DNA from: Erwinia sp. E602
Lineage (GTDB): Bacteria; Pseudomonadota; Gammaproteobacteria; Enterobacterales; Enterobacteriaceae
Length of the DNA: 64,000 bases
Reading direction: 5' to 3'
Assembly: GCF_018141005.1 (NCBI RefSeq)
Contig: NZ_CP046582.1
Span: 2,294,001-2,358,000, forward strand
Shown here: in pieces, positions 3,335 to 56,372 of the stretch
Numbering within the stretch: the first letter of the stretch is position 1
Layout: each line of letters opens with the position of its first letter
Position numbers and translations under genes: made by a program
The notes under the pieces: model-generated
What the model was told of the DNA's origin: nothing
Databases searched by the model: none
The model's input: the letters and a program-made list of their open reading frames with translations, nothing else

Positions 3335-4450
3335 ATGTTAAAGACGTTGTCCGTAGAGAACTTCACCTTATTTCAGAAAACAGATCCTCTGCAGTTCTCA
3401 TCCGGACTGAACGTTATTGTCGGAGAAAATGGCAGCGGCAAAACGCACTTACTCAAACTGCTTTACAGCCTGATTGCAACCAGTAATGAGTCTGCACGTC
3501 AGGCCATCACGCTGCTTCCCACCAAACTGCATCTGCAAAAAGCCTATGGCGAAAAGCTGATGGGCGTATTTAAACCGGATGCCGTTGGCAGGCTGGCCAG
3601 CCGTAAGCAGGGTCTCGCACGATGCGAGATCAAGGTGACCTTCAGCGAGCCTAAGCTTGATGTTGGCATCAGCATTGGAACCCGAGCCCAGACGGACGTT
3701 CAGATTGAACACCTGCCTGCGATGTGGGACACGAAAACAGCACTGTTTATTCCTACCCGTGAGTTATTGACTCTCTCTCCCGGACTGGCTGCATTATATG
3801 AACAACGTCATGTCCAGTTTGAAGAGACATGGCGCGATACCTGCCGGCATCTGGAGATATCGGCCCTGAAGGGGCGTCGTTCCAAAGCGCTTGCCAGCCT
3901 GATTAAGCCGCTTGAAATTGCCATGGGAGGAACCGTGGTGGTAGAGAGAAATGGTCAGTTCTATCTTAATGTGACGGATGGCGGAAAGATGGAGATGTAC
4001 CTTGTCGCTGAAGGTCTGCGTAAGCTGGCGATGCTGGCACATCTTATTGCCAATGGAACATTGCAGCAGCAGGGCTATCTGTTCTGGGATGAGCCTGAAT
4101 CTAATCTTAATCCGCGACTTATCCGTCTGGTGGCCTTCGTTATCCATGCTCTGGCGGCTAATGGCATTCAGGTCTTTATTGCCAGCCACAGTTACTTTTT
4201 AATGAAGGAGTTGGAAATACTGGAAAAACTGGCGCAACGCAAACCGGAAGGTCATGAGAATGCTGAAATAGCCGGAGACTCACCTGATACACCTGAAAAA
4301 ACACCATCGCGCTACTTTGCATTAGTAAAAGAAGGCAGTGTGGTTAATCGTATAGAAACCGCCGAGCGGTTCTCTGAGCTTGAGAATCTGGTGATGCTGG
4401 ATGAGGAACTGGCTCAGTACGATCGCGACATGGAGGCGGGGAATGCCTGA
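3335..4450 (+). CDS. ABC/OLD-like AAA family ATPase of a two-gene putative defence module
   Basis: A 371-residue soluble ATPase of the RecF/SMC-like AAA15/AAA21 type. It shows the N-terminal strand LKTLSVENFTLF, Walker A GENGSGKT (30-37), a degenerate signature around VAEGLRKLA (224-232), Walker B YLFWDEPESNLNP (248-260) and the H-loop ASHSYFLM (H285). This arrangement is typical of ATPases that act as sensors or motors for a partner nuclease in anti-phage systems (OLD, PARIS AriA, Septu PtuA, AbiL). It has no fused TOPRIM domain; the partner is the next gene, which overlaps it by 8 nt. Its base composition is visibly more AT-rich than the flanking EamA and flavin reductase genes, suggesting acquisition. 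SD AAGGGAGG precedes ATG 3335. Confidence 0.8.
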   Translation: MLKTLSVENFTLFQKTDPLQFSSGLNVIVGENGSGKTHLLKLLYSLIATSNESARQAITLLPTKLHLQKAYGEKLMGVFKPDAVGRLASRKQGLARCEIKVTFSEPKLDVGISIGTRAQTDVQIEHLPAMWDTKTALFIPTRELLTLSPGLAALYEQRHVQFEETWRDTCRHLEISALKGRRSKALASLIKPLEIAMGGTVVVERNGQFYLNVTDGGKMEMYLVAEGLRKLAMLAHLIANGTLQQQGYLFWDEPESNLNPRLIRLVAFVIHALAANGIQVFIASHSYFLMKELEILEKLAQRKPEGHENAEIAGDSPDTPEKTPSRYFALVKEGSVVNRIETAERFSELENLVMLDEELAQYDRDMEAGNA

Positions 4451-5039
4451 TATCACGGAAGGTAAGATAAAGCTGGCGTTTCCCCCCACCTGGCAGGTGA
4501 TGAAATACGATGAGTGCTCCTGGCATAAACAACATAAAGCGGGACATGGCGCGCACGCGATGGATGTGCTGGCGGTTGGTGATGACCAGACGCACTGGTG
4601 GATTGAAATTAAAGATTGTGAGGGCTTTGAAACCGATAACCGGCCACGTCTTTCTGATGCCAGCTCCCCATCCCTGGAAAAAACTCGCGCCTGGCTGGTG
4701 GCAGAAAATATTGACCATGAGGTTCGGGCTCTGCGAAAAAAACCGTTTATTATTGAAGAAATGCTGCTGAAGGTCCGCGATACGCTGGCCGCGCTGTCAA
4801 TTGCTCACCGTCAGGCTGAAGCCGCGCTGCTGCCATGGAACCTGTTCGCCAGCCCGGCCCCACGATGGACGGTTGTGCTGCTGTTAACCTGGGATGTAAA
4901 AGATTTTAAACTGATCGCCAAGCGCATACAGACAAAACTGAACACAGCCTTTAAAGGCTATGGTATTAACGTGTACGTTGTTAATCAGGCGACCCTGCCA
5001 GACTGTGGTTTACCTTGCACATTAAGTCGACTTCAATAA
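4443..5039 (+). CDS. Small protein with a PD-(D/E)xK-like nuclease motif, partner of the upstream ATPase
   Basis: A 198-residue protein I cannot place in a named family. Residues 40-58 read as a hydrophobic strand with D41 (MDVLAV), a turn, then WWIEIKD with E55 and K57, which is the D-x13-E-x-K spacing of PD-(D/E)xK nucleases. The C-terminal half has a hydrophobic strand (WTVVLLLTWDV) and a basic helix (FKLIAKRIQTKL). The start at ATG 4443 is chosen because GGAGGCGGGG precedes it and because it overlaps the ATPase stop, giving tight coupling; a longer frame from 4401 lacks such a site. By position and motif it would be the effector of an ATPase-nuclease pair. The nuclease reading is inference. 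Confidence 0.65.
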   Translation: MPDITEGKIKLAFPPTWQVMKYDECSWHKQHKAGHGAHAMDVLAVGDDQTHWWIEIKDCEGFETDNRPRLSDASSPSLEKTRAWLVAENIDHEVRALRKKPFIIEEMLLKVRDTLAALSIAHRQAEAALLPWNLFASPAPRWTVVLLLTWDVKDFKLIAKRIQTKLNTAFKGYGINVYVVNQATLPDCGLPCTLSRLQ

Positions 5040-5655: not shown

Positions 5656-8379
5656 TCAGCCCTCATCCTCCCTCAGCGCCGGCCAGGGATCGATCGCGCT
5701 GGCGTCAGGGTCAGGCTGGCGCAGATAGTCGCGCCAGCGGCTGCCGTCCACCTGCATATCAATCTCGCCGCTGAACGCCTGGACGCGGCAGGCATCTACC
5801 CGCTTTTCCACCTGGTGTTTGGCGATGATAAAGCGCGCCAGCTGCTCCTGGTCGAAGGAGTTTTCCAGATAAGGGTAGTTAATGGTCAGGCGCGTTTCCC
5901 CCCGCTGGCGCAGCTGATGGTTTAGCAACCCGAACAGCCGATCCACCCGGCCAATACGTTGCTCATTTGCGCCTGGTGTCCAGGCCAGCCCGTAGTGGTG
6001 CACCTTACGGCACTGCAGGTGCAGGTTAACGCCCTCCTGGAACACGGCGGTGGCGACCAGCACGTTGGGGTAGAATGGGCTGTTAAAACCGATTTTCAGC
6101 GGCGTCCGGTTGCCCGTTTCACCGCTGGCAAAGCGGGCGGGGCTGTGCATGCTGCTGATAAATGTCCAGGGCGTATCGCAGTCTTCCAGCGAACGCGAGA
6201 CGACCTTTGTGCACAGCGCCTCAAAGGTGCGCAGCGCGGCGGAAAAGTAGTTAAAAAGATGCGACCCGGCGATTTTCGGTTGCACAAAGCGGATAAAAGC
6301 GCGGTATTCGCCTTCAACGCCTTCAGCTTCTCCCCGTTGCTGGCGCTGCCGCCAGAAGCCGGTGTACCAGCAGTAGAGTTCGATCATCACCGGGCTGGCG
6401 TAGAGGAAACCGCTTTGCAGATAGCGGGAAAAGTTCTCCACGATGCGCGGGTTTGTCTTGCGCCAGTCAAGAATTTGCTGCTGCTCAGATGCAATCAGCA
6501 GCGGCCAGACCAGCGCCCAGGCGGTGGTGGCTGGCTGGCTGATGGGGAGCCGCCGCTGCACTGCCTGTTGCCCGTGCAGGCGGTAATGCTGCGCGGCCAG
6601 CACATAGTTAATGCGATCCCGATCCTGTTCAGCAGCGTGATCCCCCCCTGCGTACTCAGCCTGGCAATAGTCCGCTGCCGGCTCAAGAAACAGAGCAAAC
6701 AGGCTCTCTTTTTTGCGAAAGCGCTGGCGCACGTTGGCGCAGTCGCTGCGGTTTTCATCGGGGTTATCCCCTTTTTTTACCGTAAACAGATCGGCGATGC
6801 GCGAACCCGTAGCATCGTCCTCCCGGTGCGGCAGGTCGTGGTCAGCGTCGGCATCATATTCATCCTGGTAGACAGGATCGGTAACAGCTGCGGTCTCAGA
6901 TCTCGTCCTGGCGCGTTTTTTACCGGTACGGGAGGCATTCTGCGACACCGCTGACTGCCAACGAACCATCCCGTTAAACCAGCTGCGTGACCATTTATCC
7001 TGGTGCCACTGCGCAAGATTTTCCGCCACCTGGTCTTCCGGCAGCCAGGTCTCCAGCAGCAGCCGTGCCTGCTGGCGGTCATAATCATCATTGATGCGGC
7101 GGGTTAATTCGCGCACGGAGGGGATACGGCGTACGAACACCAGATGCTTATGCTCTTCGATATTTTTGCAAGGCGTCAGCGGATCGCTGGCGCGGCAGAG
7201 ATCGACCAGCTGCTGATATTTCGGGTGCTCCGGCACACTGCCGGTGAATTTCTGATGAGCCTCTGTCAGCTGCTGCAACAGTGAGGAGTCGGGTGCCTGA
7301 TGCCACGACTGCCCCTGATTATCATTGTCAGCCTGTTCGGTCGGACGCTGCGGGGTGGTGGACTCAAACCCTTCCAGATAACCATAGAAAAAACGACGTG
7401 GCGCGTCGGCCTGCTCGTTCTCTTTTAACAGCAGCTTATGGTAGAGCGCAAAAAACAGCTCCGCCCGTTCGTCACCGGCCAGTGAGGCAGGAAGCGCCCG
7501 CTCTTCACGATAGTGATATTTGTTAAACGCTTTCCCCCCGGCACCGGACAGAATACGCATCCGCCGGATGGCGAAGCGCCGGAGCAGCTCGTCCGCATCC
7601 GGCAGGCTGTTACCCCCTTCAGCGGCGAGAAAGTAGCTGAACATATTGGGAATATCATCCAGCGAGGAGTAGCTCGGCGTGGCGGTCATCAGCAGCACCT
7701 GCTGACTCAGCGGCTGCGCGGGGGGGCCGAACAGTCCGCGCGCAGCAGATGCCCGCTGGCTGCCGCTCCACGCGTGGCGAAAATAGTGCGCCTCATCAAT
7801 CACCAGCAGGTCAAATCCCTGTGCGCCCAGCGCCGCTTTAAGCCGCTGATGGATCCGGCTGGCGGCCGTAAAAGCAGCCTGAGCACGATCGTCGGTGGTC
7901 TCTTTCTCCGCGCTGCTCAGCAGATGGCTCAGCGCATGGATAGTGGTGATACAGAGCTGGCTGCTGCCGGCCTGCACGGCGGTGACCAGATCCTCCAGCC
8001 GGTAAGCCACGGTAAGCGCCGGGCAGAGCGTCTTATCCCGGACGTGCTTTGCGAAAAAGGTAGCAAATTCCGTCTCCCAGTGCTGGCAGATATCCCGGTT
8101 CGGTGCCATGACCAGCACCTTAGCCGCGGGGTTCTTCTGCCAGTTCCACGCCATCACGGCCAGCGCCTGCAGCGTTTTGCCCATGCCAACTTCATCTGCC
8201 AGCAGGGCCAGCCCGCCAGCGTGCAGGCGGTTAAGCAGTCCGGCAACGCCTTCTGCCTGGCGGTCAGCCATGCTGTTACCGCCCGGTTGCGGCAGCCAGT
8301 CCGGCTGGCTGAGGTCAAAATTGATCCGCTCTGCAACCTGCGCCACGCTAACCGGTTTGTATTTTTTACTGTTTTTCAT
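5656..8379 (-). CDS. SNF2-type DEAH helicase, third gene of a putative defence operon
   Basis: A 907-residue superfamily 2 translocase. Visible motifs: the Q-like lead-in MADRQAEGVAGLL (37-49), motif I DEVGMGKT (62-69), Ia VLVMAPNRD, motif II DEAH (195-198), motif III LLMTATPSY (229-237) and motif VI QRIGRVDR (807-814), the last being characteristic of SNF2/RapA-like proteins. A long insertion (about 340-640), rich in charged and polar residues, separates the two RecA lobes. Its start overlaps the end of the PLD gene by 14 nt. Helicase plus PLD nuclease pairs occur in DISARM, Dpd and Mokosh defence systems, but the DUF1998, methyltransferase and deazapurine genes of those systems are absent here. 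Confidence 0.85.
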   Translation of the reverse strand: MKNSKKYKPVSVAQVAERINFDLSQPDWLPQPGGNSMADRQAEGVAGLLNRLHAGGLALLADEVGMGKTLQALAVMAWNWQKNPAAKVLVMAPNRDICQHWETEFATFFAKHVRDKTLCPALTVAYRLEDLVTAVQAGSSQLCITTIHALSHLLSSAEKETTDDRAQAAFTAASRIHQRLKAALGAQGFDLLVIDEAHYFRHAWSGSQRASAARGLFGPPAQPLSQQVLLMTATPSYSSLDDIPNMFSYFLAAEGGNSLPDADELLRRFAIRRMRILSGAGGKAFNKYHYREERALPASLAGDERAELFFALYHKLLLKENEQADAPRRFFYGYLEGFESTTPQRPTEQADNDNQGQSWHQAPDSSLLQQLTEAHQKFTGSVPEHPKYQQLVDLCRASDPLTPCKNIEEHKHLVFVRRIPSVRELTRRINDDYDRQQARLLLETWLPEDQVAENLAQWHQDKWSRSWFNGMVRWQSAVSQNASRTGKKRARTRSETAAVTDPVYQDEYDADADHDLPHREDDATGSRIADLFTVKKGDNPDENRSDCANVRQRFRKKESLFALFLEPAADYCQAEYAGGDHAAEQDRDRINYVLAAQHYRLHGQQAVQRRLPISQPATTAWALVWPLLIASEQQQILDWRKTNPRIVENFSRYLQSGFLYASPVMIELYCWYTGFWRQRQQRGEAEGVEGEYRAFIRFVQPKIAGSHLFNYFSAALRTFEALCTKVVSRSLEDCDTPWTFISSMHSPARFASGETGNRTPLKIGFNSPFYPNVLVATAVFQEGVNLHLQCRKVHHYGLAWTPGANEQRIGRVDRLFGLLNHQLRQRGETRLTINYPYLENSFDQEQLARFIIAKHQVEKRVDACRVQAFSGEIDMQVDGSRWRDYLRQPDPDASAIDPWPALREDEG

Positions 8380-10294
8380 AACCGCAGTTCTTCTTAATCC
8401 AGCGCTGATATTGCGGTGACACTGTCACCGGGAGTTTTACGGAGGGCAGTGCCAGGCGCGACCACGGCAATCCGGACAGCTCCGGCCACGCTTCTGCCAG
8501 CTCCCCGGCATGGTTTACCAGCGAACTTAACTCCTGAATCAGAAACCAGCGGAACAGTGGGCTGGGGTGCGCCTGCGGCTGACGTGCAAAGGCCACCAGT
8601 TCAGCCAGACCGCCGGGAAAACCAAACGTCTGCTGGTAAAAAGCCTGGCCGGTTGCCGCTGCATCCAGCCTGGTGCGCAGCTGTGAGCAGGCCAGAAACA
8701 GGCCGTGCCACGACACGGTATCCTGCGCGGTGTCTGTTGCATGCTCCGCCGGAGAGCCATCCGTTTCCAGGTTTTCTGCCAGACCGCGCAGCAGCAGGCT
8801 GTCCGACTGCTGCGGGTCGCGCTGTAAAATCAAATCCTGCAGCAGATCGTTCAGCGAGGCATAACCCTGTGCCGGGCGGCAGTGCGGATGGCTCTCCACG
8901 ATCGGCCCGGAAAACGGAACTTCACGCCTGCGCCACGTCTGCCAGGCACGATCGTGGAGCAGTGCGGTGTTATCGGCCACGTGCAGCGTTGTTGGTGAGA
9001 TCAGGCGGAAGCTGTTTTTGCCCTTGCTGCGGCGCTGCGCCCACTCCAGCGTCAGGTTGCCCTTAACGCCCGGCAGATGCAGCCGGTAACCGCTCTGCGG
9101 TTTACCCTCCGCCCAGCTGCCGCTGATAGTGTACTCACCGCGCTGCCAGTCCCAGTGCACCTGCAGGTCGAACGGTGGCGGCAGCGGCCAGTCCGGGCCA
9201 AGTGCGTCCAGCTGTTCAGGGCTGGCAAAGTGTACCTCTTCCGGCGGCAGGGCGGCCCCGGCGATCGCCAGACCGACCGGGACCGTCTGCACCACCCCGG
9301 CCTCAATATTGTGACCCACGCCGCTGGGGGTGAAATTCCACGAGCCGGTGGCCATTCTGGCGCGTTCACCGTCGTGCAGATGCCAGATCTTGGCGTGCAT
9401 CAGCTCGCTGTGCGGCTGTTGCAGCGGGTTATGACAGAAATGCAGCTTCTCTTCTGCCATCAGCTCCAGCAGCGCTTCGCTCCGGCGGGTGCGGTAAACG
9501 CGGCCGTCCACCCGATCGCTGACCAGGCTGACCGACAGGCTGGCGTTATGACTCTCTTCCGCCAGCTGTTGCCAGAACCCGGCCAGATCGGCGGCCAGGT
9601 AAGGCGACCAGACCGTCAGCCTTCCGCGGCGCATACCGCGAAACAGGGTGCTGAGAAAACTACCGGGCTGGAAGCTGTGAACAAATCGCCAGCCCGTCTC
9701 CCCCGGCAGATAGCGACAGCGCGGGGGCAGGCCGCCTTCGTGCTGGCTCTCCTGCTCCTGAAACGGGCGCAGCGGGGCAAAGAAGTCGAGAATGGCCTGG
9801 TACTGCACCCGCGCACTCACCGGATAGAAGCGAAACACCTCCTGATTGCGGCCCCAGCCGCCCAGCGTCAGGTTGGCGCTGCCGGTGCCGAGGATCGTCT
9901 CGCCGAGGCTGTTCTGCAACAGGATCACCTTGGGGTGAAACAGGGTATGCCGATCCGGCGTTATTTCAGCATCCGGCCACTGCAGCAGGCGGGGAGCCAC
10001 CGGATGAATCTTCAGCGCGGTGCGCTTCACCTGGTCGCTGCCGGCCAGCCGGTGATCGCAGAAGATGCGCAGGTCGAGGCCGCTCTCATTGAGTCTGCTC
10101 TGCAGCAGCTCATAATCCATGCGGGTAACCGGCTCCACTTCGCCATCCAGCACACGCGGCAACAGGTATTTTTCAATAAACGGGATGTTGAGGTTAAAGC
10201 TGGTCATCCACACCCGGACGAGCGGAGCCCGGCCGCGCAACGCCGCCAGCTGCTGTTCAAATTCGGTCAGCAGTTTCACGGTGTGTTCCCCCAT
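8366..10294 (-). CDS. Phospholipase D-type nuclease, second gene of a putative defence operon
   Basis: A 642-residue protein with two PLD half-sites: H120-P-K122 with GSANLT (138-143) and GRNQE downstream, and H300-A-K302 with GSWNFT (317-322) and HNIEAG. Two HxK motifs in one chain would form a complete active site for phosphodiester cleavage, as in PLD-family nucleases. The C-terminal ~300 residues match nothing I recognise. The open frame extends 91 codons further upstream, but that stretch is low-complexity R/A-rich sequence lying over the preceding gene; ATG 10294 begins a natural sequence (MGEHTVKLL) and gives a 19-nt overlap with the upstream gene. It is between the unknown protein and the helicase in a three-gene overlapping operon. 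Confidence 0.8.
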   Translation of the reverse strand: MGEHTVKLLTEFEQQLAALRGRAPLVRVWMTSFNLNIPFIEKYLLPRVLDGEVEPVTRMDYELLQSRLNESGLDLRIFCDHRLAGSDQVKRTALKIHPVAPRLLQWPDAEITPDRHTLFHPKVILLQNSLGETILGTGSANLTLGGWGRNQEVFRFYPVSARVQYQAILDFFAPLRPFQEQESQHEGGLPPRCRYLPGETGWRFVHSFQPGSFLSTLFRGMRRGRLTVWSPYLAADLAGFWQQLAEESHNASLSVSLVSDRVDGRVYRTRRSEALLELMAEEKLHFCHNPLQQPHSELMHAKIWHLHDGERARMATGSWNFTPSGVGHNIEAGVVQTVPVGLAIAGAALPPEEVHFASPEQLDALGPDWPLPPPFDLQVHWDWQRGEYTISGSWAEGKPQSGYRLHLPGVKGNLTLEWAQRRSKGKNSFRLISPTTLHVADNTALLHDRAWQTWRRREVPFSGPIVESHPHCRPAQGYASLNDLLQDLILQRDPQQSDSLLLRGLAENLETDGSPAEHATDTAQDTVSWHGLFLACSQLRTRLDAAATGQAFYQQTFGFPGGLAELVAFARQPQAHPSPLFRWFLIQELSSLVNHAGELAEAWPELSGLPWSRLALPSVKLPVTVSPQYQRWIKKNCGYEKQ

Positions 10295-11625
10295 AACCCC
10301 TGCAGCAGATACTGAAACTGCGGCAGGTAGTAACTGTTTTTCCAGCGGCCTGGCAGCTGCCGCTCCTCCTCGTCGACTGCGGCTGAGAGCACGCTGACGG
10401 CGTAACTGCCGGGGGCGGTCTCCCGCAGCCAGGGCAGCTGACCGCGCAGCGCCATCACCCGTTGATGCCAGCTCAGCAGCAGGGCAATCTGCTCTGCCAG
10501 CGTACCGGCGCGGGCAATGTCCAGCAGCTGCCTGCGCCGCTCCCCGGCGGTGCTCTCCGCCAGCCATGCCACCTCGGCCTGTTCCGCCTGCACGGCCAGC
10601 GCAGGCAGGGTCTGCGCATCCCGCTGCATCGCGCGCCAGTCGGCCTCAATCTGCCGCAGGCTGTTGTGCCGGCGGCAGGTCAGCGTGCGGAACAGCAGAT
10701 CGATACCGGTCAGCAGCGGTTCGGTCAGGCGGATATCATCCAGCCGCTGGCGTGCATCACCGGCAGGCAGTGCGGCACGCGCAAGCCTGAACACCTCAGC
10801 GTTGTGCAATGCGGTGGCCGGCGGCCACTGCAAAATGACGTCGCCCAGCGCACCGGCGGCGGCATCATCCAGCCCGGTGACCTCCAGCCAGAATTCACGC
10901 GCGTAGCTGCCGCAGTGTTCCCGCGAGCGAAAAGCCGCCACATAGTGTGCGGCCAGCGCCGGATCGCACTGGCTGAAGCGGGCGATACGGCGGGCAGCGG
11001 GCAGCGCCAGCTGCTGCTGCAGGTGGGTTACCAGCGCGGTAAACAGCGGATGCAGCACGCCGCCGTGCCCCAGAAGCACCTGCGCCTTCTGCCAGACGGC
11101 GCCGCTTTCCGCGCCGCTGTAGTGGTAGTGCCGGTCAAAAAACTGCATCTCCATCATCGGCGTTTTATAGCGGCCGCTGATGCCCAGCAGCGTCTGTCGT
11201 TCCAGCAGCCAGCCGTCCCCCCGATGGCTGAACAGCAGCCGCTCACGCTTCTCCAGCCGGTTTTTCTGCCCCATGCGGATGCCGGGAACCCCGCTCAACA
11301 CCACGTCCTCGCGATCCTGCGCGCTGAGCATACTGTAAACAAACAGGTTCTCCAGGTACGTCAGGCAGGCGTGTTTAAACGCCAGGCTGTTGAGGTCGGG
11401 GTAGTCCGCCGGGGTCAGGTCGCCGGATTCGGTAAGGCGTTTGATCACCGCGTGGTGCAGTAGATTGAGGGTATACTGGCGCACGTCGTTTGAAATCGAG
11501 CTGAGTCGGTGGCGAAAAACCCGCTGCCCGAACGCAGACCAGATAACCAGGTTGCCCAGCGGGTCGCTATTGATTTCTGCCGTCAGGCGCTGATCATATT
11601 CGGTAAGAAACTCCGCGAGTTGCAT
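10276..11625 (-). CDS. Unrecognised 449-residue protein, first gene of the helicase/PLD operon
   Basis: I do not recognise a domain. The protein is soluble, mostly helical in appearance, with R/Q/L-rich helices in the second half (for example the stretch around QIEADWRAMQRDAQ). The first third has a conserved-looking segment with VIWSAFGQRVFRHRLSS. It is the promoter-proximal gene, its 3' end overlapping the PLD gene by 19 nt, so it should be a structural or specificity partner of the nuclease and helicase. The start codon 11623-11625 has GGGAG ten bases upstream; that ribosome site is part of the perfect palindrome at 11635-11661, which suggests control of the operon at its first gene. Confidence 0.75.
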   Translation of the reverse strand: MQLAEFLTEYDQRLTAEINSDPLGNLVIWSAFGQRVFRHRLSSISNDVRQYTLNLLHHAVIKRLTESGDLTPADYPDLNSLAFKHACLTYLENLFVYSMLSAQDREDVVLSGVPGIRMGQKNRLEKRERLLFSHRGDGWLLERQTLLGISGRYKTPMMEMQFFDRHYHYSGAESGAVWQKAQVLLGHGGVLHPLFTALVTHLQQQLALPAARRIARFSQCDPALAAHYVAAFRSREHCGSYAREFWLEVTGLDDAAAGALGDVILQWPPATALHNAEVFRLARAALPAGDARQRLDDIRLTEPLLTGIDLLFRTLTCRRHNSLRQIEADWRAMQRDAQTLPALAVQAEQAEVAWLAESTAGERRRQLLDIARAGTLAEQIALLLSWHQRVMALRGQLPWLRETAPGSYAVSVLSAAVDEEERQLPGRWKNSYYLPQFQYLLQGLWGNTP

Positions 11626-11706: not shown

Positions 11707-13806
11707 TCAGCCCAGCGTCATTACCCGATCCGCCGAGGCAATGGTCGAAGGCCGGTGGGCGATGATTACCCGGGTGATATTCAGCCCCTGAATGGCGGTG
11801 TTAACCCGCGCTTCGCTGTCGGTATCCAGGTGGCTGGTCGCCTCATCGAGAAACAGGATCGCCGGGCGGCGATAGAGCGCGCGGGCGATCAGCAGCCGCT
11901 GTTTCTGGCCGCCGGAGAGGCTGCTGCCCAGCTCGCTGATCAGCGTCTCATAGCCCATCGGCATGCGCATAATATCCTCGTGGATCGCGCTGCGCTGTGC
12001 GCACTCCAGCAGCCAGGCCTCATCCTTCTGGCCGTCGAAGCCGGCAATATTATCGGCGATCGAACCGGCAAACAGCGTGTCCTCCTGCAGCACGCAGGCG
12101 ATGCAGGCGCGGTAGTTATTGCTGCCCGCCTGGCTGATATCCAGACCGTTAAGCCGCACCTCGCCAACGGTGGGCTGCAGCAGACCGGTGAGGATCTTCA
12201 TCAGCGTGGTTTTGCCCTTGCCGGAGGGGCCGGTAATCGCCAGGCACTCGCCGGGGGCGACGCTGAAGCTCAGTTCGCGGAACAGCGGCGCGGAGAGCGC
12301 ATCGTACTGGAAACCGAGGTTGTGCACCTCCAGCCCGGCCGGTTCGCCGGGGCGCAGCAGCGGCCGGTCCGGCTGTACCGGTTCGGTTTCGGTCAGCGCG
12401 ATATCGGCGATGCGTTCGGCGTGCAGCGACAGCATGCGCAGCTGCAGCAGCATCTCCAGCAGGTTGGCGGTGCGCTCCGAAAACTGCCCGCGGTAGGTGT
12501 TGAAGGCGACAAACATCCCCAGCGTCATATGGCCGTCAATGACCTGAGTGGCACCCAGCCACAGCAGGGCGATCTGATCCAGGGTGGCGATCAGGGTGCT
12601 GCCGCCGCTGAACAGCATCTCAAATTTGGCCTTGCGCACCCCGACGTTGGCGGCGTCGATATTCATATTCAGCCAGTGCTGCGCCCGGGTGCCGGAGAGC
12701 CCGAGCACCTTCAGCGTGGTGATGCCGTACAGCGTTTCCATAAAGTGCGAGCCGGAACGGGCATTTTTTACCAGCATCTCTTCCGAGATCTGCCGGTAAC
12801 GCTGATAGGTGCTCAGGCGAAAAAGGCAGTAAATCGCGGTGAATGCCAGCACCACCCACACCAGCCAGCCGCCGTACAGTACCATCATCACCAGCAGCCC
12901 GATGGTCATCACGCCGTCCATCAGGCTGTTAACGACGTTGGTGGTCAGCGTGGCTTTCAGCGTATCAAGGGAGAGAAAGCGCGACTGAATGTCCCCCAGC
13001 TTGCGCTTTTCAAACCACGCCAGCGGCAGCGCCATCAGATGGTCAAACAGCCGCGCCTTCCACTGCACGTCGATCAGCGTGGTCATCACCAGCGTGGTCC
13101 AGGATCGCACGATGCCCATGCCGGTGCGGAACAGCACAAAGAACAGCAGGCCGAGGCAAATCAGCGTCAGCAGGTCGGCGTCCCGCGCCGGGATCACATG
13201 GTCCATCACCAGCTGCATCCCCACCGGCAGCAGCAGGTTAACCGACTCGATCATCAGCGCCAGGCAGGCGATTTTGGTCAGGGTGGCGGGCAGGCCGCTG
13301 ATGCTGCCCATCAGCGAGCGGATGCTGACGCGTTTCTGGCGTTTCTGACGGGTGAATTCACCGTCCGGCCACAGCTCCAGCGCCACGCCGGTGAAGTGCT
13401 GCGACACATCGTTCAGGCTCAGCACCCGTCGCCCGGAAGCCGGATCGTGAATAATTACCCGGCTGCCGCGCACGGCGACCAGTACCACAAAATGGTTCAT
13501 ATCCCAGTGCAGGATCGCCGGGGTTTTCAGCGCCGCAAGCTGGTCGATATCCAGCTGCAGCGCGCGCGATTTCAGATTCAGCGCGCCGGCCACCGCCATC
13601 AGCGTGCGCAGCGTCACGCCGCGGCTGGAGACGTCAAACCGCTGGCGCAGCGTCAGCAGGTCGGTATGCAGGCCAAACCAGCCGCAGACCATTGCCAGAC
13701 AGGCCAGCCCGCACTCGGCGGCTTCGGTCTGGATGATTTGTGGCACGCGGCGTCGCAGGCCCAGGTGCAGGCGGCTGGCCAGTTGCTGCACGTCTTCTTT
13801 ATTCAT
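11707..13806 (-). CDS. C39 peptidase-containing bacteriocin ABC exporter (CvaB type)
   Basis: A 699-residue exporter that cleaves double-glycine leaders and pumps the mature peptide across the inner membrane. Residues 20-130 are the C39 cysteine peptidase: Q26 and C32 in QTEAAECG, H105 in MNHFVVL and D121 in IHDPASG, all catalytic positions intact. The middle has six hydrophobic helices (about 165-430). The C-terminal ABC domain shows Walker A GPSGKGKTT, signature LSGGQKQR, Walker B LFLDEAT and the H-loop IIAHRPS. It overlaps the fusion-protein gene by 8 nt. Together with that protein and the precursor at 15188-15403 it forms a type I export system; an outer-membrane TolC partner must be encoded elsewhere. 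Confidence 0.92.
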   Translation of the reverse strand: MNKEDVQQLASRLHLGLRRRVPQIIQTEAAECGLACLAMVCGWFGLHTDLLTLRQRFDVSSRGVTLRTLMAVAGALNLKSRALQLDIDQLAALKTPAILHWDMNHFVVLVAVRGSRVIIHDPASGRRVLSLNDVSQHFTGVALELWPDGEFTRQKRQKRVSIRSLMGSISGLPATLTKIACLALMIESVNLLLPVGMQLVMDHVIPARDADLLTLICLGLLFFVLFRTGMGIVRSWTTLVMTTLIDVQWKARLFDHLMALPLAWFEKRKLGDIQSRFLSLDTLKATLTTNVVNSLMDGVMTIGLLVMMVLYGGWLVWVVLAFTAIYCLFRLSTYQRYRQISEEMLVKNARSGSHFMETLYGITTLKVLGLSGTRAQHWLNMNIDAANVGVRKAKFEMLFSGGSTLIATLDQIALLWLGATQVIDGHMTLGMFVAFNTYRGQFSERTANLLEMLLQLRMLSLHAERIADIALTETEPVQPDRPLLRPGEPAGLEVHNLGFQYDALSAPLFRELSFSVAPGECLAITGPSGKGKTTLMKILTGLLQPTVGEVRLNGLDISQAGSNNYRACIACVLQEDTLFAGSIADNIAGFDGQKDEAWLLECAQRSAIHEDIMRMPMGYETLISELGSSLSGGQKQRLLIARALYRRPAILFLDEATSHLDTDSEARVNTAIQGLNITRVIIAHRPSTIASADRVMTLG

Positions 13807-15085
13807 TGACGGGTCCCGTGATGCTTTTCTTCAGGCTGTAATAGGGGGAGAGCATCCACTGATAGAGCGGGCGTTTTTCCAGAAACAGCGTCGACTGCGC
13901 CTGCATGCCGCTGGAGAGCACCAGCGGCTGGCCCTGCCAGCTCAGTCCGCCGTTATCGAGCGCCACCGTGGCCTTATACCAGGAGCCGTTAACCCGGCCG
14001 GCCGGGTCGCGCGGCACGCTGGCCCACCCCTCCAGCTCACGCACCGGCACCGGCGCAGCGGAGACGGAGACAATGCGGCCGGGGAACTGGCCGTACTTCT
14101 CATAGGGGAAGGCGGCATAGCGGATATTGATGGTTTCCCCCGGTGCCACGTGCGGGCGGCTGTCGTCGGGCAGCCAGGCGACAAAGAGCACGCTGGCATG
14201 CGAGGAGGGCACCAGCTGGATCAGGCTGTCGCCGGCGTTGACCATCTGCCCTGGCGTCACGCTGAGCGAGGAGACCACGCCGCGGGTCGGGGCGATGATC
14301 ATCCGGCTGCCGCGCGCGCCGGTTTCTGCCCGCTGGCGCGCGAGGTCATCACGCTGATAGCGCGACTGGGCGATCTGGTTATCGAAGTCGGCGGCTTTGG
14401 TCTGCAGCTCGCTTTTCAGGGTGGTGATCTGCAGCGACTGTTGCAGCGCCTGCGAGTTCAGGCTCTGATATACGCTCTGCTGCTGATAGTAGAGGTAGCG
14501 CTGGTTATTCATCTGATCGGTGTTGATCAGCCCCTTGCGCAGCGAGGCTTCATAGGAATCCCGACTGGCACGCATCGCCTGCAGGCCTTCGCGGGCCGTG
14601 GTCACCATCCCCTCCAGGCCCTGCTGCGCCTGCTGATACTGTTTCAGCTGTTGTTGCAGGCTGGACAGCGTTTCCCGTTTGTTGCTCTGCAGCTGGCTGA
14701 TAATGGCGTCCAGCTGTTTCGTCTGCTGTTCGAGGATGGTGAGGGTGGTGCCGCTGACGCTGCCCGTGTCGGTCACCTGGCTGACGTCCAGCTGGTAGAG
14801 CGGCGTACCTGCGTTAACCTGCTGACCGTCGGCCACCAGCAGCTTCGAGACGATGCCCTGTTCCGGGGCAAACAGGTTGATGGTGCGCGGTTCGGTGATG
14901 ATTTCACCGTTAACGGTAATGCGGCGGGTGTAGGTACCTGAAATCAGTAAGGTAAGCAGTGCGATGATAAAGCCGGCGGTCAGCAGCAGGGTCAGCCACA
15001 GCGGCCAGCCGTTCAGCAGCAGCACCTGGCCGTTCCAGCGGCTTTGCTGATGCTGCGTCACCTCCGGGCGAAACTGTATCGGCAT
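13799..15085 (-). CDS. HlyD-family membrane fusion protein for bacteriocin export (CvaA type)
   Basis: A 428-residue periplasmic adaptor: short cytosolic N-terminus, one transmembrane helix (about 27-50), a biotinyl-lipoyl-like half (APEQGIVSKLLVADGQQVNAG), a long coiled-coil hairpin rich in Q (about 125-270), the second lipoyl half (IIAPTRGVVSSLSVTPGQMV) and a beta-barrel. It bridges the ABC exporter to an outer-membrane channel such as TolC. ATG 15085 is chosen because AGGGA lies six bases upstream; the frame extends 13 codons further, into the terminator hairpin, which is unlikely. It lies 102 nt downstream of the precursor gene, behind a hairpin terminator that may limit exporter relative to peptide. 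Confidence 0.9.
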   Translation of the reverse strand: MPIQFRPEVTQHQQSRWNGQVLLLNGWPLWLTLLLTAGFIIALLTLLISGTYTRRITVNGEIITEPRTINLFAPEQGIVSKLLVADGQQVNAGTPLYQLDVSQVTDTGSVSGTTLTILEQQTKQLDAIISQLQSNKRETLSSLQQQLKQYQQAQQGLEGMVTTAREGLQAMRASRDSYEASLRKGLINTDQMNNQRYLYYQQQSVYQSLNSQALQQSLQITTLKSELQTKAADFDNQIAQSRYQRDDLARQRAETGARGSRMIIAPTRGVVSSLSVTPGQMVNAGDSLIQLVPSSHASVLFVAWLPDDSRPHVAPGETINIRYAAFPYEKYGQFPGRIVSVSAAPVPVRELEGWASVPRDPAGRVNGSWYKATVALDNGGLSWQGQPLVLSSGMQAQSTLFLEKRPLYQWMLSPYYSLKKSITGPVNE

Positions 15086-15128
15086 GGCATATCCCTGGTC
15101 AGATGTTCTGGGGCAGCATAGCATACTA

Positions 15129-15160
15129 AAAAAAGCCCCCGACGCGGCGGAGGCTTTTTT
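15129..15160 (-). terminator. Terminator/attenuator between precursor and export genes
   Basis: A 13-bp stem with one mismatch (AAAAAAGCCCCCG paired with CGGAGGCTTTTTT, 6-nt loop), ending in a T-run in either direction. On the minus strand it follows the microcin gene by 27 nt and precedes the HlyD gene, so it probably stops most precursor transcripts and lets a fraction read into the exporter. Confidence 0.8.
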
Positions 15161-15187
15161 CCTGAAGAGGATGTCTGACGGGCAGTA

Positions 15188-15403
15188 TCAGAACAGCAGT
15201 TTGCCCAGCAGGCCGCCAACGCCAACGGTCGCCGCCTGTACGCCCGGCAGCGCCACGGTGACGCCCTGGCCTGGCGTGACCTGGACGACAGAACCGAGGT
15301 TGAGACCTAATGAACTGGTTAGCCCCAGCACGCTACCCAGGAGACCGCCACCTGCAACATCATCAATTTCTGTTTCAGTTAATTCACGAATGGTTGAAGT
15401 CAT
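15188..15403 (-). CDS. Class II microcin-like precursor with double-glycine leader
   Basis: A 71-residue peptide. Residues 1-19 form a classical double-glycine leader (MTSTIRELTETEIDDVAGG): hydrophobic residues at -4 (V16), -7 (I13), -12 (L8) and -15 (I5) relative to cleavage after G19. The predicted mature peptide of 52 residues starts GLLGSVLG, is glycine- and hydrophobic-rich, has no cysteine, one lysine and no acidic residue, and ends GGLLGKLLF. It lacks the serine-rich C-terminus of siderophore-linked microcins, so it would be an unmodified class IIa-like microcin. The start is fixed by GGAG eight bases upstream; the longer frame to 15508 has no comparable site. The two genes behind it encode exactly the peptidase-exporter and fusion protein needed. 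No immunity gene is recognisable nearby. Confidence 0.85.
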   Translation of the reverse strand: MTSTIRELTETEIDDVAGGGLLGSVLGLTSSLGLNLGSVVQVTPGQGVTVALPGVQAATVGVGGLLGKLLF

Positions 15404-15655
15404 TTCCACTACTCCGCAATAAACTTGATGTGCCTGATGACTGAGCATCAGGGGAGGTAAGCCATTAACAACAGGCTGAAAAGAGCATAGCAGAACGGTT
15501 GTTAGCAACCAGTCTCTGTGGCGGAGTTTTGGCTGTGTTTATGAGACTGGCGGTCAGGTGATTTATGGAAATCATTAATTTTATGACTGTTTTGGTGATA
15601 CGGGTGGGGTGATAAATCATAAAAAATACTATTGAATTTTGGAATGGTGATAGAA
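15404..15655. other. Presumed promoter region of the microcin operon, no gene seen
   Basis: The stretch upstream of the precursor is AT-rich from about 15560 to 15650 and has no convincing coding frame. I could not pick a clear -35/-10 pair on the minus strand. Any immunity gene expected for a microcin is not visible here. Confidence 0.4.
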
Positions 15656-16020
15656 GGGTTCGTTGCCTGTTTGATCGAGAGTGCCGGGCCTGTCAGCGGG
15701 CGACCCTGCGCGGGTTACCCCGCTCCGGGCTCATCCCGCTGCCTTCCCTGATAATCGGCTTTTGGTGGGGGCTGCTGCTTTTTTAGGGCTCGTTGCCTTT
15801 GTGATCGAGAGTGCCGGGCCTGTCAGCGGGCGACCCTGCGCGGGTTACCCCGCTTCGGGCTCATCCCGCTGCCCTCCCTGATAATTGGCTTTTGGTGGGG
15901 GCTGGTGCTTTTTTTAGGGCTCGTTGTCTTTGTGATCGAGAGTGCCGGGCCTGTCAGCGGGCGACCCTGCGCGGGTTACCCCGCTTCGGGCTCATCCCGC
16001 TGCCCTCCCTGATAATCAGC
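15656..16020. repeat. Three tandem copies of a ~130-bp unit
   Basis: The block GATCGAGAGTGCCGGG recurs at 15673, 15803 and 15934, a period of 130-131 bp. Units two and three are nearly identical; unit one differs at a few positions (for example CTCC for CTTC in the centre). The third copy ends early, at CCCTCCCTGATAATC. Each unit contains the GC hairpin GCGGG-TTAC-CCCGC and, between units, a stretch ending in a T-run (TGCTTTTTT). Short open frames cross the units on both strands but change reading with the copies and are not credible genes. Confidence 0.85.
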
Positions 16021-16380
16021 GATGGCGTTGGCTGAGTTATTCCTCGTCGCATATTGGATCGGGGAAGAAGCTTGCACCTTAATTGCACGGGTAATGGGGA
16101 AGAATGGTCCGGCGGGGTGCAAAATTGATGAAAATAATGTTCCTTTACTGGCTTTGTGCACATTTTTGGGGCGGGGAGAGCATGCATGCGTTTATTTGCG
16201 GCAGAATTTAGTTAACCCTGCATTATGTTTAACCCCAAAACCATAAGAAAAGAGAATGACCTGTTTTATGTGATGCCGCCTGCATTTTTGAACGTCTGTA
16301 ATTTTCGATTTAAGTTATTTTAACGTTATGTTTTTGAATGATTTTTGTCATTTCAACTTAATCATGGCATGTCATTTTAT

Positions 16381-55787: not shown

Positions 55788-56372
55788 ATGCAATCAAAAC
55801 GTGCAGAAATACGGATCGTCGACAGCAGGATCCTGTCTGACGACTGGTATTCACTTAAAAAATATACCTTTGAACTTCAGCGGCGCAGCGGCGAGTGGCA
55901 GCGCCAGAATCGCGAAGTTTACGACCGCGGCAACGGGGCGACGGTGCTGCTTTACAACCGCGAGCGGAAAACGGTGATCCTGACCCGCCAGTTTCGTTTT
56001 CCGGTGTTTATCAACGGTCACGATGGCTATCTGATTGAGACCGCAGCGGGCCTGCTCGACAATATGGACCCCGAAAGCCGCATTAAGGCGGAAGCCGAGG
56101 AAGAGACCGGATACCGCGTTTCACAGGTGCAGAAGGTGTTCGAAGCCTTTATGAGCCCGGGCTCGGTAACGGAAAAGCTCTACTTCTATATCGCTGAATA
56201 TGCGGCTGCCGATCGGGCAACGGCGGGCGGCGGCATTGAAGCCGAGGGCGAAGATATCGAAGTGCTGGAGTTGACCCTCGTCGAGGCGCTGGCCGCCGTC
56301 GACAGCGGTCAGATCGTTGATGGTAAAACCATTATGTTGCTTTATCACCTGGCCCTGAAGGGCATTTTATGA
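55788..56372 (+). CDS. nudK: NUDIX hydrolase, GDP-mannose pyrophosphatase-like
   Basis: A 194-residue enzyme close to E. coli NudK (191), which splits GDP-mannose and related nucleotide sugars. Shared segments include REVYDRGNGATVLLYN, VILTRQFRFP, the Nudix region AAGLLDNMDPESRIKAEAEE with ETGY, MSPGSVTEKLYFYIAEY and DGKTIMLLYHLALKGIL. The Nudix box has D in place of the first glutamate and lacks the usual arginine before the first EE pair, as partly also in NudK. The start at 55788 matches the family; the frame extends 19 codons upstream. Confidence 0.88.
   Translation: MQSKRAEIRIVDSRILSDDWYSLKKYTFELQRRSGEWQRQNREVYDRGNGATVLLYNRERKTVILTRQFRFPVFINGHDGYLIETAAGLLDNMDPESRIKAEAEEETGYRVSQVQKVFEAFMSPGSVTEKLYFYIAEYAAADRATAGGGIEAEGEDIEVLELTLVEALAAVDSGQIVDGKTIMLLYHLALKGIL

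Follow-up and report, generated by a model that had tools for sequence, protein, structure and literature searches.

The microcin V operon (cvaC, cvi, cvaA, cvaB) encodes a precursor with a double-glycine (GG) leader and a small core, a HlyD-type adaptor and a C39 exporter; its cvaC and cvi genes are on the opposite strand, behind cvaB. Across Enterobacterales, Pantoea and Erwinia among them, putative class II microcins have been described (PMC9746304, PMC13174018), and one survey counted 425 unique novel ones (PMC9746304). Inhibition of the E. coli secretor was recorded for 12 of 23 candidates from Pantoea, Erwinia and Xanthomonas and was far weaker than that by microcin V; in the most active cluster all six combined a candidate immunity ORF with two cysteines (PMC13174018). 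Further, 12 of 40 Serratia candidates inhibited the E. coli secretor, but only 7 of the 40 gave zones on S. marcescens, and on E. coli W3110 no zones were observed (PMC13101503). An immunity gene beside the peptide is described as the rule for class II microcins (PMC13101503), a leader of 15-20 aa ending in GG, GA or GS is a criterion of the class (PMC13174018), and the triad residues of a microcin exporter are numbered Cys32, His105 and Asp121 (PMC11494933). The Neisseria Nap peptides also combine a GG leader with a C39 peptidase. They are cationic peptides of autolysis and go with this peptidase and an outer membrane protein of the FapF type, where the window has an ABC exporter and adaptor; they are encoded on an island that carries an immunity-like gene, napI; they serve a function other than killing competitors and have no detectable antimicrobial activity (PMC11798529).

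The window is a 64,000-nucleotide stretch of the genome of Erwinia sp. E602 (a 4.84-Mb contig plus a 0.33-Mb contig). For a 20-kb piece of the smaller contig the best matches were Pantoea piersonii plasmids (79% identity over 41% of the piece), and 69 of the 136 records matched were from Pantoea, which points to Pantoea or a near relative as host. The window carries a related set of genes on its minus strand, transcribed in the order precursor, hairpin (34 bases), adaptor and exporter:

15188..15403, minus strand: precursor peptide gene, 71 aa (ORF listing, leader pattern, composition)
15347-15403, minus strand: leader, codons 1-19
15191-15346, minus strand: core, codons 20-71
15128..15161, minus strand: terminator-like hairpin with A-run, GC stem and T-run (fold scans)
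13799..15085, minus strand: HlyD/CvaA-type membrane fusion protein (adaptor), 428 aa (HlyD_3, E 3.3e-15)
11707..13806, minus strand: C39 peptidase-containing ABC exporter, 699 aa (Pfam domains and catalytic residues)

The sequence-only reading had proposed a new class II microcin at 15085..15403, an interval that also covers the intergenic DNA before the adaptor gene; the coding frame itself is 15191-15403(-), followed by a stop codon at 15188-15190. The frame starts with ATG, and a ribosome site, GGAG, lies 8 nt 5' of it. Double-glycine leaders have consensus positions, against which we judged the leader. This leader, MTSTIRELTETEIDDVAGG, is 19 aa long and ends in GG, within the length and endings given for class II microcins; it carries Leu at -12, Glu at -8, Ile at -7, Val at -4 and GG at -2/-1, and its GC3 is low (0.16). 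The core (GLLG...KLLF) has 52 residues, including 12 Gly, 12 Leu, 9 Val and no Cys, with a mass of 4.89 kDa (4,887), a charge of +1 and a GRAVY of 1.15, and the precursor ends in VGVGGLLGKLLF. The earlier descriptions of a complete double-glycine leader and of a 52-residue, cysteine-free product were thus correct. Pfam contained no family for the peptide, NCBIfam gave sub-threshold leader matches only, and the single match among solved structures was at chance level (E 0.11). The Ser/Gly-rich C-terminus with modification genes nearby that marks class IIb (siderophore) microcins was not found at the precursor locus. Among eight neighbouring genes scanned, six had Pfam matches (helicase, PLD, AAA, RraA, MFS, hydantoinase) and two had none. 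Sequence scans for RNA families (gathering threshold) and tRNAs found none.

The genes next to the precursor are, as had been claimed, a HlyD-type adaptor and a C39 exporter with intact motifs. The exporter matched Peptidase_C39 (1.5e-33), ABC_membrane (4.1e-49) and ABC_tran (1.3e-31), and its catalytic triad is intact at the residue numbers given above (C32, H105, D121), with Q26 also present. The membrane fusion protein expected of class II microcins lies in the same operon, its gene overlapping that of the exporter by 8 nt. Both proteins fell below the NCBIfam equivalog cut-offs of the NHLP bacteriocin export system (exporter, 481.3 of 853.3 bits; adaptor, 84.7 of 156.2 bits).

Like the microcin V operon, the locus thus has a GG leader, a small core, a C39 exporter (58% identical to CvaB) and a HlyD-type adaptor (42% identical to that of the operon). 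In contrast to microcin V, its precursor comes first and is co-directional with the exporter, the hairpin lies between them, and there are neither cysteines nor an immunity gene. Further, its core is not CvaC-like, scoring no better than shuffles against the CvaC core (P 0.216). The core had been said to resemble no known microcin; this agrees with the lack of a curated family (Pfam, NCBIfam) and with the result for CvaC, the sole one of ten verified microcins compared. The Pantoea and Erwinia candidates of PMC13174018, compared by description, come from related hosts and involve the same gene kinds, whereas the precursor locus has neither the immunity ORF nor the two cysteines of their most active cluster. 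Since putative class II microcins were already known in Enterobacterales, the window adds a new sequence to a type of locus already described, and its novelty is lower than first seen (compare the 425 candidates of PMC9746304).

A strict leader pattern, applied to the ORFs of 30-150 aa in the whole window, selected two: the precursor and 56121-56348(-), an evident chance ORF that is antisense to a predicted 213-aa ORF and has no exporter nearby. The same pattern found none in 40 second-order Markov copies of the window, in which a loose pattern found a mean of 0.40 per copy (maximum 2). As a protein query against whole genomes, the precursor matched in 1 of 60, its own, and tblastn against 72,556 plasmid records gave no match. 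Besides the precursor, a leader profile (A2, 38 rows) found four more genes with GG/GA leaders, dispersed over the chromosome:

C2:2070273: 73 aa, two Cys, A2 match
C2:3740918: 90 aa, A2 match
C2:1422470: about 80 aa, A2 match
C2:3067983 (L208 1399-1836): 49-aa GA-leader ORF, weak A2 match (E 0.05)

These data bear on the explanation that the precursor is a chance ORF and that the exporter serves only unlinked GG peptides. The missing close homologue, the four unlinked genes and the evident chance ORF picked by the strict pattern would agree with it; the full leader, the ribosome site, the place and orientation of the ORF, the absence of strict matches in the Markov copies and the occurrence of a comparable peptide in the corresponding position at two of the nearest exporter loci (L048, L052) speak against it. 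A chance origin of the ORF is unlikely, and the explanation as a whole is hardly credible.

Directly upstream of C2:3067983 lies a 96-aa ORF with two membrane segments and a single Pfam match below threshold, to a capsule protein; the two form a candidate microcin/immunity pair in the same genome. Two further C39 exporters are encoded in this genome, one (L098) with its own adaptor and an outer membrane efflux protein and the other (L099) apparently alone. Elsewhere in the host genus, unlinked GA-leader peptide genes recur at one chromosomal place (L175, L176, L178, L179, L200), adjoining a glycerol-3-phosphate acyltransferase gene (by Pfam for L178, by likeness for the others). Among these five, a nominal immunity-like ORF, probably a chance one, was found only in L176.

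The hairpin between precursor and adaptor had been taken to set the stoichiometry of peptide and exporter. When G-T pairs and one mismatch were permitted, 19 of 24 precursor-adaptor gaps, that of the window included, held a hairpin; it was counted if fewer than 5% of base-shuffled copies reached its score, and the gaps were hand-chosen among co-directional pairs, with L063, L087, L095 and L215 left out. The window hairpin had the second highest score of the gaps tested, and most of the hairpin sequences vary among loci. A Watson-Crick-only scan found hairpins in 13 of the 24 gaps and missed that of the window because of a G-T pair. Further, a simple terminator scan did not list the window hairpin, and the fold of the whole 121-nt stretch around it was unremarkable (z -1.04). 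The recurrence in 19 of 24 gaps therefore supports the stoichiometry idea as a recurrent design; termination itself is predicted, and the hairpin would lower transcription of the exporter relative to that of the precursor.

A C39 exporter (E<=1e-60) was found in 31 of 37 genomes of the host genus, its own included, and the best of the others was 64% identical to that of the window. Loci of Rahnella, Ewingella, Hafnia, Rouxiella and Serratia sp. M24T3 had exporters 73-75% and adaptors 60-63% identical, the nearest exporters being those of M24T3 (L052) and Rouxiella badensis (L048), at 74-75%. In a tree of 75 exporters (FastTree), the window exporter grouped with those of R. badensis and Serratia sp. 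M24T3 (support 0.746), next with a Pantoea MAG and Kosakonia sacchari (0.883), and then with a Rahnella-Ewingella-Hafnia group and Rouxiella aceris (0.999), giving a clade of 21 exporters. CvaB and the in-genus exporters with immunity-like neighbours fell outside this clade. Such a phylogeny would fit lateral transfer. In an empty-site test with the two flanking genes, no relative had both close together, and therefore no empty site was shown.

A GG/GA-leader ORF lay within 2.6 kb of the exporter operon in 37 of 43 adaptor relatives (contig search), the six without being L045 (which ends at a contig edge), L054, L056, L057, L072 and L074. The proposed link of the precursor to a dedicated C39 exporter was thus supported, and the two almost certainly form a pair. 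At two loci on Erwinia persicina and Pantoea dispersa plasmids (L213, L214), CAAX-protease-family genes near 3.3-3.9 kb, Rce1-like in L213, lie directly upstream of the adaptor. These may possibly encode immunity proteins; the leader pattern found no GG peptide at either locus.

At L052 (1413-9229), Serratia sp. M24T3 has eight genes for GG/GA-leader peptides, arranged around two exporter operons, of which the second runs past the end of the stretch examined. This locus and that of R. badensis resemble the window in the hairpin before the adaptor, the lack of an immunity-like ORF and the cut site, VAGGGLL, which occurs in two peptides of the set; they differ from it in the eight peptides of M24T3 and in the acidic residues of most cores. 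Leaders of the M24T3 and R. badensis peptides were 73% alike and cores 26% (36 pairs), and against these nine relatives the window leader was 46% and the core 34% alike. In 16 core comparisons (2,000 shuffles each), just one core from these loci was significantly like that of the window after correction: that of the eighth M24T3 peptide (P 0.002, ~0.03 corrected), which adjoins a 75% identical (partial) exporter. Four further comparisons gave P 0.009-0.03, including one with a core that does not belong to the clade (L069), and 11 of the 16 gave P >=0.1, including the R. badensis (0.146) and Pantoea MAG (0.204) peptides. Similar leaders with varied cores in M24T3 and R. badensis would resemble diversifying bacteriocin sets. 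A profile built from 12 peptides (A1) matched in 20 of 394 genomes of the order (E<=0.01) and in 20 of 37 genomes of the host genus (E<=0.05), the own genome counted in both, with many matches spanning little beyond the leader. The Bacteriocin_IIc and MccV models each matched 6 of the 12 A1 members (best E 1.2e-5 and 0.0017).

The Rahnella-type loci (near 7.2-7.7 kb in L032, L034-L040, L043, L044, L046, L050 and L071, from Rahnella, Ewingella, Hafnia and a MAG) have a single 63-aa GA-leader peptide, divergent from the exporter, hydrophilic and near-invariant. The gene on its other side carries a DUF697 domain (L035); we take this gene to be ycjF. Mean pS was 0.405 and mean pN 0.053 (pN/pS 0.13, over the 63 of 78 pairs with pS >0.05), which indicates that this peptide is under purifying selection, unlike a bacteriocin.

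No immunity ORF was found beside the window precursor by the ORF listing and membrane-segment scans at the locus, and an adjacent inner-membrane immunity protein, as in class II microcins, was accordingly not found there. The membrane scans did not pick the ORFs in a set of 130-bp repeats, and neither scan picked a 51-aa ORF upstream of the precursor, 15465-15620(-); a 112-aa ORF antisense to it, 15084-15422(+), was not picked by the stricter scan (the other scan covered the same strand only). The repeats lie upstream of the precursor at 15655-16045, three in tandem, the copies being 95% and 82% identical to the first. Among relatives, we looked within 250 bp of each peptide for ORFs of 45-160 aa that lie on its strand and contain a hydrophobic segment, and this recovered Cvi beside CvaC (1/1). 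Nominal immunity-like ORFs accompanied 2 of 26 peptides in the exporter clade, window included, 9 of 24 at other linked loci, 13 of 20 at in-genus linked loci and 9 of 34 unlinked in-genus peptides; these counts include evident chance ORFs and neighbouring GG peptides taken as each other's candidates, leave out L033 (short contig) and L215, and place L053, inside the clade by the tree, outside it. L053 likewise has no immunity-like ORF. The candidate of L040 is antisense to a 357-aa open frame. That of L039 lies 173 bp away; the corresponding position is without a 60-codon open frame in L036 and L037, has a shifted one in L046 and does have one in L043 and L044. We judged both to be chance ORFs. 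Convincing by eye were 3 of 24 at other linked loci (L058, L061, L063), 6 of 20 at in-genus linked loci (L085, L086, L090, L091 twice, L094) and 1 of 34 among the unlinked (L208; L203 was doubtful). The clade peptides are not independent, because near-identical Rahnella-type copies make up 13 of the 26 and a single Serratia contig contributes 8.

The missing immunity gene had been called odd. Its absence is real; it is no local oddity, being common to a clade of 21 exporters (support 0.999), and local decay of an immunity gene was rejected for the same reason. The label of class II microcin, as first given, was not supported in its strict sense because no adjacent immunity gene, the rule for the class, was found at the locus. 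One explanation keeps the label: the peptide would be a typical class II microcin, its immunity gene being at a distant place in the genome, lost or unrecognised. The GG/GA genes scattered on the chromosome (one of them weak) indicate that components need not cluster, C2:3067983 has its two-segment membrane ORF, and in-genus loci with other exporters have membrane ORFs beside the peptide (L085, L086, L090, L091, L094). Further, an earlier, stricter immunity scan missed Cvi, and therefore weak or unusual immunity genes may be missed too. However, local loss is unlikely when the whole exporter clade is without immunity genes, and a remote immunity gene would not be recognisable by sequence. We consider this explanation rather unlikely.

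A secreted GG peptide other than a bacteriocin, with a surface, biofilm or signalling role and a non-killing exporter subfamily, would need no immunity gene. The clade offers no convincing immunity gene, the Rahnella, Ewingella and Hafnia peptide is hydrophilic and near-invariant, and none of the eight M24T3 peptides has an immunity-like ORF beside it. However, the core of the window peptide is hydrophobic, variation among the M24T3 cores is strong, and CvaB, the related exporter with known cargo examined, serves a bacteriocin. A role of this kind is possible and, on balance, doubtful. Equally tentative is a broader proposal, in which an Enterobacterales C39 operon subfamily would export GG peptides for which immunity genes never existed, since these peptides, unlike classical bacteriocins, would leave the producer's own kind unaffected; their role would be non-killing or intrinsically self-safe, with a fixed single peptide in Rahnella and relatives, arrays in Serratia and Rouxiella and a singleton in the genus of the window.

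The reading that we prefer, with a probability of about 0.6, is that the precursor yields a secreted, microcin-like peptide and that its exporter belongs to a subfamily that lacks immunity genes. The leader, ribosome site, place before the exporter, intact triad and kinship with CvaB and CvaA argue for it, as do the GG/GA peptides at 37 of the 43 relatives, the likeness to one M24T3 core, the varied cores of the M24T3 and R. badensis set and the inhibition recorded in print for candidates of Pantoea, Erwinia, Xanthomonas and Serratia. Against it stand the lack of an adjacent immunity ORF, the weakness of those printed activities, the Rahnella-type relative unlike a bacteriocin, the lack of a close peptide homologue, the 11 of 16 core comparisons with P >=0.1, the low likeness to the nine relatives in leader (46%) and core (34%), the poor structure model and the low leader GC3. 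Secretion of the precursor product is very likely, the peptide probably works like a microcin, and antibacterial activity is plausible. From the sequence we infer the following course. The hairpin would stop much of the transcription before the exporter genes, leaving the precursor in excess. The C39 domain would bind the leader and cut after Gly-Gly, and the 52-aa peptide would leave via the HlyD-type adaptor and host TolC. The core, very hydrophobic and almost uncharged, has two hydrophobic stretches round a TPGQG turn, as for a membrane-active peptide; because the AlphaFold model was poor (pLDDT 59.1), the idea of a hairpin in the membrane comes from composition only. The peptide would most likely act on competing bacteria in the way of a class IIa microcin. 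Encoded without a recognisable immunity gene, it would oblige the producer to be protected otherwise, by having no receptor or by suffering no toxicity from inside.

Altruistic lysis, too, needs no immunity gene, and an autolytic or self-directed peptide like the Nap peptides would share the leader and C39 logic (PMC11798529). However, the cationic Nap peptides with their FapF-type protein and napI differ from a core of charge +1 with a full ABC exporter, and we regard this explanation as very improbable.

The interest of the microcin-like reading lies in the exporter clade without immunity genes more than in one more candidate peptide. Microcin searches are guided by likeness to the ten verified members and by the presence of an immunity gene close by. 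A clearly bounded clade whose GG peptides come with no recognisable immunity gene would offer a direct test of any antibacterial activity in such peptides, and it bears on producer survival without immunity and on a second, non-killing use of GG-peptide secretion in Enterobacterales. Among the literature titles listed, in a coverage from which subscription papers were mostly absent, none dealt with this clade or with Enterobacterales GG-peptide loci that lack immunity genes.

Directly downstream of the exporter, at 5656-11625(-), three adjacent genes match A, B and C of PADLOC PDC-M27, a candidate defence system (532.7, 689.1 and 1189 bits). Further, an AAA ATPase gene at 3335-4450(+) matches PADLOC HEC-02 (436.8 bits) and, with the following ORF without a Pfam match (4401-5039), marks a second possible defence locus.
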